From positions 1 through 31,036 of the IMG/VR virus record IMGVR_UViG_3300017772_000067: DNA of 31,036 bases; one strand, given 5' to 3'. Both the position numbers and the translations under genes were made by a program. This stretch comes from a virus. Shown here one piece after another: positions 1,252-7,065 of the stretch. The notes under the pieces are model-generated. The model was not told the origin of the DNA. It worked only from the letters and a program-made list of their open reading frames with translations, and did no database searches. How positions within the stretch are numbered: the first letter of the stretch is position 1; the number at the start of each line of letters is the position of its first letter.

Positions 1252-1395
1252 ATGATTGAGAGGGTAAAGAGCGTGACAGAGTACACCAGGTAGTTACAGA
1301 AGTGCTACAGGGGTATTAAGTGCATGACAGCTGGACCCACAAAACTAACTGACGCACCGAGCCATCGACGGATGGTGATCCTCTCGATCTTATTT
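1252..1395 (+). ncRNA. Candidate structured non-coding RNA, about 140 nt
   Basis: No convincing protein is encoded here. The ends pair: GATTGAGAGG (1254-1263) with CCTCTCGATC (1380-1389), ten pairs including one U-G, extendable by two more (1264-1265 with 1378-1379). Inside are a hairpin CCATC-GACG-GATGG (1362-1375), a GUAGU/GCUAC stem (1290-1294 with 1304-1308) and a possible CCAG/CTGG pairing (1286-1289 with 1331-1334). A promoter ends seven bases before the closing helix and a T-rich run (TTATTTT) follows it, as expected of a discrete transcript with paired ends. It could instead be a structured leader for the SWIM gene. It has no tRNA or tmRNA landmarks. Confidence 0.5.
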
Positions 1396-5631: not shown

Positions 5632-5922
5632 ATGGCTTACAAAGCAAAAAATGTCGAGAGACCAGCAAGTACAGATCGTCCAAAGTTCAACCCAGGTAAA
5701 TATGGTAAGGTATGGAATACCGTTTCATTTGATCATAAATGGAATCGAGTGCCTATAGGCGAAGCTAAGCAACCTGTTATAGGATCGCTATGCATCGATG
5801 GAAAGGAGGTGAACCTTACTTTTACAGAATGCAATCGCATTATTGAGGTACTAGAGGATGCAAAGCAAACTCACAATATAGGTACACGAATGGGTAGAGC
5901 GGATAACGGCTGGAAAATTTAA
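5632..5922 (+). CDS. Hypothetical protein, 96 aa
   Basis: A small basic protein with an unstructured-looking N-terminus (KNVERPASTDRPKFNPGKYG) and a strand-rich middle (VIGSLCIDGKEVNLTFTECNRIIEVL). No Shine-Dalgarno sequence is visible before the ATG. It ends just before the large hairpin and promoter P4. The function is not recognised. Confidence 0.6.
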   Translation: MAYKAKNVERPASTDRPKFNPGKYGKVWNTVSFDHKWNRVPIGEAKQPVIGSLCIDGKEVNLTFTECNRIIEVLEDAKQTHNIGTRMGRADNGWKI

Positions 5923-6618: not shown

Positions 6619-7065
6619 ATGAGTATAACAGCAAACATAAGTCCATTCTGCCTGCTAAACGGTACATTAGATGAGCAATTGTTTAATTATACTCAAGACG
6701 AGCTCGATGACTTTCATAAAGTGCTACAAGCTGACGTGCTGTCAGATGTATTTACTGCTGTAGAGCAAGAATATAATAGTCAGTTTGCATCTGACATTAC
6801 ATTGGACAGTCTATCAGATGAAGATTGTGAACTACTAAATGATTTCATCGATCAGCGATTGAGTACAAGTAACAGTGCAGTACTACCACCTACGTTAGAG
6901 TTACTAGATGGATATATTGCAATTAGCTCATCGAATCTACGCACGTTAGATACATTCAGAGATCGTTTAATCGATGATGGTATAGAGTGGGAGCATAGAA
7001 TTAAAAAGCATGACGGTGTAGTGATACATAGCTATGTTTTTAATACAAACGAAGTTAGTGAATAA
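6619..7065 (+). CDS. Hypothetical acidic protein, 148 aa
   Basis: A strongly acidic, serine-rich soluble protein (for example TLDSLSDEDCELLNDFIDQRL), with no cysteine cluster, signal or membrane segment. A GAGAGA stretch precedes the ATG. It has its own late-type box and its stop overlaps the first arm of the 13-bp inverted repeat around the Hsp20 gene. The family is not recognised; a structural or assembly role would fit the promoter class but is only a guess. Confidence 0.6.
   Translation: MSITANISPFCLLNGTLDEQLFNYTQDELDDFHKVLQADVLSDVFTAVEQEYNSQFASDITLDSLSDEDCELLNDFIDQRLSTSNSAVLPPTLELLDGYIAISSSNLRTLDTFRDRLIDDGIEWEHRIKKHDGVVIHSYVFNTNEVSE

Follow-up and report, generated by a model that had tools for sequence, protein, structure and literature searches.

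The window analyzed here, at 31,036 bases a whole viral record, probably represents part of a larger genome. The gp6-like baseplate wedge protein that it encodes matched PHROG 219 and was 43 to 49% identical to its counterparts in two phages, immuto of Flavobacterium and Mel-JY01 of Microcystis. We infer a host among the Bacteroidota from the promoter type together with the link to Flavobacterium, with some caution because Mel-JY01 is labelled Microcystis. On the plus strand of the window, a predicted phage promoter (positions 1213 to 1253) is followed by a structured RNA of about 136 to 144 nt (1254 to 1389), a small membrane-type open reading frame (ORF; 1416 to 1484) and a gene for a SWIM-type small protein (1481 to 1663). 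The RNA occurs in a small set of Bacteroidota-type phages from the sea, of which three related members are known: the window phage and those represented by contigs L003 and L083.

The first-pass annotation had placed a promoter just ahead of the helix that closes the RNA. No sigma-70 consensus site was found there, and we took instead a phage motif of fixed spacing that is common to immuto. It consists of AGTTG at 1213 to 1217 and a −7-type box, TTCGTATATTAA, at 1234 to 1245, followed by GGTATAAT; the usual geometry of Bacteroidota promoters is −33/−7. The site from 1213 to 1245 reads AGTTG-N16-TTCgTATATTaa, and the motif AGTTG-N16-TTCTTATATTTA recurs 20 times in related contigs with its spacing unchanged. 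Slightly changed, it is found four times in the window, with boxes near 1234, 2509, 4375, and 24211; none of four shuffled sequences contained it above threshold. By the Bacteroidota geometry, transcription is predicted to start at about 1248 to 1251, some 6 nt upstream of the closing helix. In the relatives and in immuto the motif precedes ordinary genes. Written as a 45-base element of fixed spacing, AGTTG-N16-TTC.TATATTTA..TATAA, it begins at 1213, 2488, 4354, and 24190 in the window, recurs in the relatives and immuto, and fronts many operons.

Two further observations concern the upstream side. The ORF ahead of the RNA promoter in L083 (1 to 270) resembles by eye an immuto ORF (L002, 3064 to 3393) that lies behind a matching promoter, the two sharing a WYRTT... 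motif. A T-run followed by CTATAG forms a conserved intergenic motif 3' of the AAA gene in most loci (window, about 885 to 900; L003, 1180; L004, 3812; L007, 1648; L009, 5893; L021, 2168; L093, 30, where the AAA gene lies outside the stretch examined).

Fold and conservation of the RNA

The stretch from 1252 to 1395 folded with a minimum free energy of −45.9 kcal/mol (z = −3.35), and 1 of 200 dinucleotide shuffles did as well. With z-scores of −3.24 in L003 and −2.82 in L083, the fold is more stable than composition predicts in all three sequences. When both strands of the window were scanned in 100-nt steps, the RNA had the lowest free energy among 620 stretches; its z-score was among the better ones but not the best. 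Folding alone would not single the RNA out, because several other stretches had lower z-scores. Those with z below −4 (20 shuffles each) lie at 5902 (minus strand), 7302 (both strands), 10302 (plus strand), and 12202 (minus strand).

The ends of the RNA had been described as paired over 10 to 12 positions. We computed 12 contiguous pairs, G-U counted, between GATTGAGAGGGT (1254 to 1265) and ATCCTCTCGATC (1378 to 1389). This helix, P1, closes a junction, and folding and alignment place it in all three sequences. Eleven of its 12 pairs are unchanged and one alternates between U-A and U-G, so that P1 is conserved and yields little covariation signal. Inside the junction, RNAalifold placed a helix-loop with an inner hairpin, P2 (1272 to 1326), whose loop varies in length and whose outer part is uncertain, and a tentative helix, P3 (1328 to 1351), around the conserved loop ACCCACRAAACTAAC, with two pairs broken in L083. 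Folded alone, L003 preferred a different inner fold in the P2 region and L083 a different register in the P3 region; both inner helices are uncertain.

The 3' hairpin can be drawn in two registers. In P4 (1361 to 1376, GCCAUC-GACG-GAUGGU), L003 keeps pairing through a C-G to U-A and a G-U to G-C change. In the rival register P4', CAC at 1355 to 1357 pairs with GUG at 1375 to 1377, and CAC/GUG becomes UGU/ACA, with both sides changed at three pairs. These two-sided changes, which are confined to the 3' hairpin, support pairing in P4' in a way that is suggestive but not proof. In a permutation test, 36 of 500 shuffles equalled the covariation of P1 plus P4' and 159 of 500 that of the full structure, on three sequences, which are too few for formal covariation. 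The 12 substitutions of L003 broke no pair of the window fold (random mean, 1.9; P = 0.07); those of L083 broke three, about equal to the 3.6 expected at random. The first-pass annotation had made the keeping of pairs in homologues its test of the RNA, and P1 intact in all three sequences and a 3' hairpin kept through paired changes are what the homologues gave. The sequence GGUGAUCC in this hairpin is similar to the complement of the 16S rRNA 3' end; a role as such a complement was rejected, as L003 has GACAAUCC.

Sequence conservation was high. With gaps excluded, the RNA of L003 is 91.5% and that of L083 92.9% identical to the window copy. In the SWIM, CxxC, Slt, and SNase genes, identity is 47 to 72% at third codon positions and 75 to 84% overall. 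The AAA gene is 89.6% identical between the window and L003. Judged from these comparisons, the RNA is under strong constraint for which no long reading frame accounts.

Homologues were sought by scans anchored on the neighboring AAA gene and on the SWIM gene, which found the RNA in two contigs, L003 and L083. Scans from the CxxC gene, the SNase gene, and RNA patterns added no copies, and patterns built from conserved blocks matched in viral contigs only the two known relatives and chance sequences. A covariance model of the RNA (R1) likewise recovered L003 and L083 only when it was applied to some 130 related viral loci together with 36 whole phage records besides the window (22 in one run and 14 in another that also took in a bacterial genome). 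The 395 Bacteroidota genomes searched gave two weak matches, both rejected. One lies inside an acyl-CoA dehydrogenase gene; the other, at L184 1501 to 1607, shares a 20-base hairpin and was judged a chance match, since it belongs to a dispersed repeat with 38 matches, of which one copy has the hairpin pattern. About 180 related loci and the 395 genomes contained no further credible copy, and the RNA is narrowly distributed.

The SWIM operon and the leader question

In the window, the T-rich stretch CTTATTTT lies at 1389 to 1396, and the transcript would be U-rich from 1390 to 1396, directly after P1. The RNA had first been read as a discrete small RNA ending at 1390 to 1400. Its T-rich stretch is there; the discrete end was not borne out, as no terminator-like site was scored at the stretch and the next start codon follows 14 nt after P1 in two relatives. 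The U-rich stretch likely belongs to the leader that precedes the next start codon. In L003 and L083 that codon is the SWIM ATG, with no room for a second promoter between it and P1, so the RNA is also the 5' leader of the SWIM mRNA there, and transcription must continue at least partly past the T-rich stretch.

The SWIM-type protein has 60 amino acids with a CxC...CxH pattern, matches the Pfam SWIM model at an E value of 0.023, short of the curated cutoff, and is 82% identical in L003 and L083, where its gene is the first after the RNA. In the window a 22-codon membrane-type ORF (MKKMKICMAVIINFVISLIIFT) comes first, 26 nt past P1, and overlaps the SWIM start. This ORF is absent between the RNA and SWIM in L003 and L083; L093, which is without the RNA, has a small ORF in a similar position ahead of SWIM.

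The main alternative to a stable RNA is that the element is a structured leader that acts in cis at the 5' end of the SWIM operon and never as a separate RNA, which we consider a serious possibility at somewhat less than even odds. Such a leader could control translation or elongation, in the manner of a riboswitch, a protein-binding site, or put-like antitermination, or it could protect the 5' end of the mRNA. It would fit an RNA that stands upstream of the SWIM operon in all three phages, occupies nearly the entire 5' leader, and is followed by the SWIM start at exactly the same distance in both relatives. A multi-helix junction closed by P1, the arrangement seen here, is also usual in riboswitch aptamers. 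Against a leader role, we saw neither a terminator nor an alternative pairing that would hide the start codon; the SWIM start region is open in L003 and about half open in L083. A leader tuned to SWIM also sits poorly with the window, where a different small ORF comes first at a different spacing, and with L004, L007, L008, L009, L021, and L093, which have SWIM homologues and no RNA; two of these, L004 and L008, have SWIM directly under a promoter of the same type. The RNA matched no Rfam riboswitch.

Stable RNA genes of the relatives bear on the same question. In L009, the promoter variant TATATTAAGGTAT, as in the window, lies between the AAA and SWIM genes and is followed by a tRNA-Leu gene, whose 5' end lies as far behind the promoter, to within 1 base, as the start of P1. 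L094 has a tRNA-Glu whose end is followed, about 18 nt on, by the start codon of an operon gene. It is therefore normal in these phages for one unit to hold both a stable RNA and an ORF, and by analogy the arrangement in L009 and L094 leans, thinly and from a single example of the slot, toward a stable RNA gene ahead of the operon. The first-pass annotation had left a choice between a separate RNA and a SWIM leader; the relatives make the leader role possible, and the L009 tRNA in the promoter slot favors a stable RNA.

Further tRNA-like and tmRNA sequences occur in the relatives. Directly after the L009 tRNA-Leu, at about 6875 to 6955, is a degenerate tRNA-like sequence with a T-arm (GGGTTCAAGTCCC) and an acceptor stem (TAGGCA/TGCCTA), seen by eye and matched by neither ARAGORN nor Rfam. 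ARAGORN found permuted (two-piece) tmRNAs with the tag GEQVE(Y/M)AMAA in L004 (7408 to 7702), L007 (5264 to 5558), L008 (5170 to 5464), and L009 (10314 to 10607), those of L004, L008, and L009 also matching Rfam RF04321; there was none in the window or in the examined 40 kb of the L083 contig.

Readings of the conserved element

The region had been noted as lacking a convincing protein, and it holds two small ORFs only, of 13 codons (1252 to 1293) and 24 codons (1324 to 1398). That these encode conserved peptides, with the fold secondary, is very unlikely. All three sequences retain an intact 13-codon ORF, and its ATG is near the predicted transcript start, but this ORF coincides with the 5' strand of P1, and the noncoding strand that pairs with it is conserved just as well. 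The 24-codon ORF is put out of frame in L083 by the loss of one base, so that a conserved product of the small ORFs is not supported, and changes between the window and L003 alter amino acids yet keep pairing.

The RNA had also been called undescribed and without landmarks of tRNA or tmRNA, with a search of Rfam proposed as a check. Searched against Rfam with a limit of E = 10, the element gave nothing credible (best score, 15.6 bits against a cutoff of 55; E = 4.3), and Rfam run over the window and related loci gave no match for the RNA. ARAGORN identified no tRNA or tmRNA in the RNA stretch, and we found no intermediate homologue that would link it with an established family. That the element is a stable RNA of known type, such as a tmRNA or tRNA, that has diverged too far for the models to recognize is very unlikely: genes for permuted tmRNA and for tRNAs do lie in this region in the relatives, but in addition to these search results the element has no T-arm and no CCA end, and its closing helix has 12 rather than 7 bp. 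On sequence grounds we regard it as a new structured phage RNA without a match to known RNA families.

This RNA is probably either a stable phage RNA not described before or the folded leader of an mRNA; we favor, at a probability of about one-half, a stable phage RNA domain cotranscribed with the SWIM operon. The reasons are that folding is significant in every sequence, that the RNA is far better conserved than third codon positions nearby, that P1 is paired throughout and the 3' hairpin, whichever register is drawn, stays paired through changes on both sides, and that no L003 substitution breaks a pair. The promoter, the RNA, and SWIM also stay together in L083, where the gene upstream is different. 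The tRNA-Leu in the same promoter slot and the tRNA-Glu ahead of an operon gene point the same way, as does a first start codon that belongs to the membrane-type ORF in the window and to SWIM in the relatives and is unsequestered in L003. Weighing against a stable RNA are a 3' end with neither a terminator nor a known processing site, a comparison of only three sequences in which L083 breaks pairs about as random changes would, and the constant company of the SWIM operon, which a leader would predict too. A search of phage sequence for antisense targets of the RNA found none beyond chance, which also counts against this reading. The original observation is confirmed, and its first interpretation is partly supported.

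If the RNA is stable, RNA polymerase would start about 6 bases upstream of P1 and the transcript would fold into the junction, with the 12-bp P1 protecting its 5' end, and extend into the SWIM-type operon. The relatives' tRNA genes, in the promoter slot or ahead of an operon gene, suggest by analogy that the RNA would most likely be released from the longer transcript or outlive it. It would then act separately in the infection, with a protein or a second RNA as its binding partner. A bolder proposal, which we think doubtful, is a new class of stable, trans-acting RNAs that marine Bacteroidota-type myophages swap with tRNA genes in this promoter slot and that act on host translation or RNA turnover early in infection. 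To our knowledge, few phage structured RNAs have been described besides tRNA, tmRNA, GOLLD, and ROOL, and almost none for Bacteroidota-type marine phages. A stable RNA here would offer a defined test object, with a promoter, boundaries, and mutable helices, in a region where phages seem to swap stable RNA genes.

Comparison with known phage RNAs

In kind, the RNA resembles stable RNAs of other phages, among them RNA C and RNA D, small stable RNAs of the phage T4 tRNA cluster. Like them, the RNA here is a short non-tRNA of a myophage, encoded where tRNAs are made. Unlike them, it is a single RNA that heads a protein operon without a tRNA cluster, and we know of no sequence relation between them.

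The HK022 put RNA is a structured phage leader. A glutamine riboswitch occurs in marine phages (PMC9004378). With these leaders the present RNA shares a P1-closed fold at the 5' end of a phage transcript; it differs in being a single copy without a known aptamer or a visible expression platform.

GOLLD and ROOL are phage-encoded structured RNAs of several hundred nucleotides, often near tRNAs, and are recognized families (PMC7567579, PMC12286853), whereas the RNA described here, likewise structured and encoded by a phage, is about 140 nt long and matches no family. Two-piece tmRNAs lie behind early promoters in marine phages (PMC9004378). The present RNA lacks their tRNA-like domain, tag frame, and Rfam match, but its position is like theirs, that of a candidate stable RNA that opens an operon immediately after a phage promoter.
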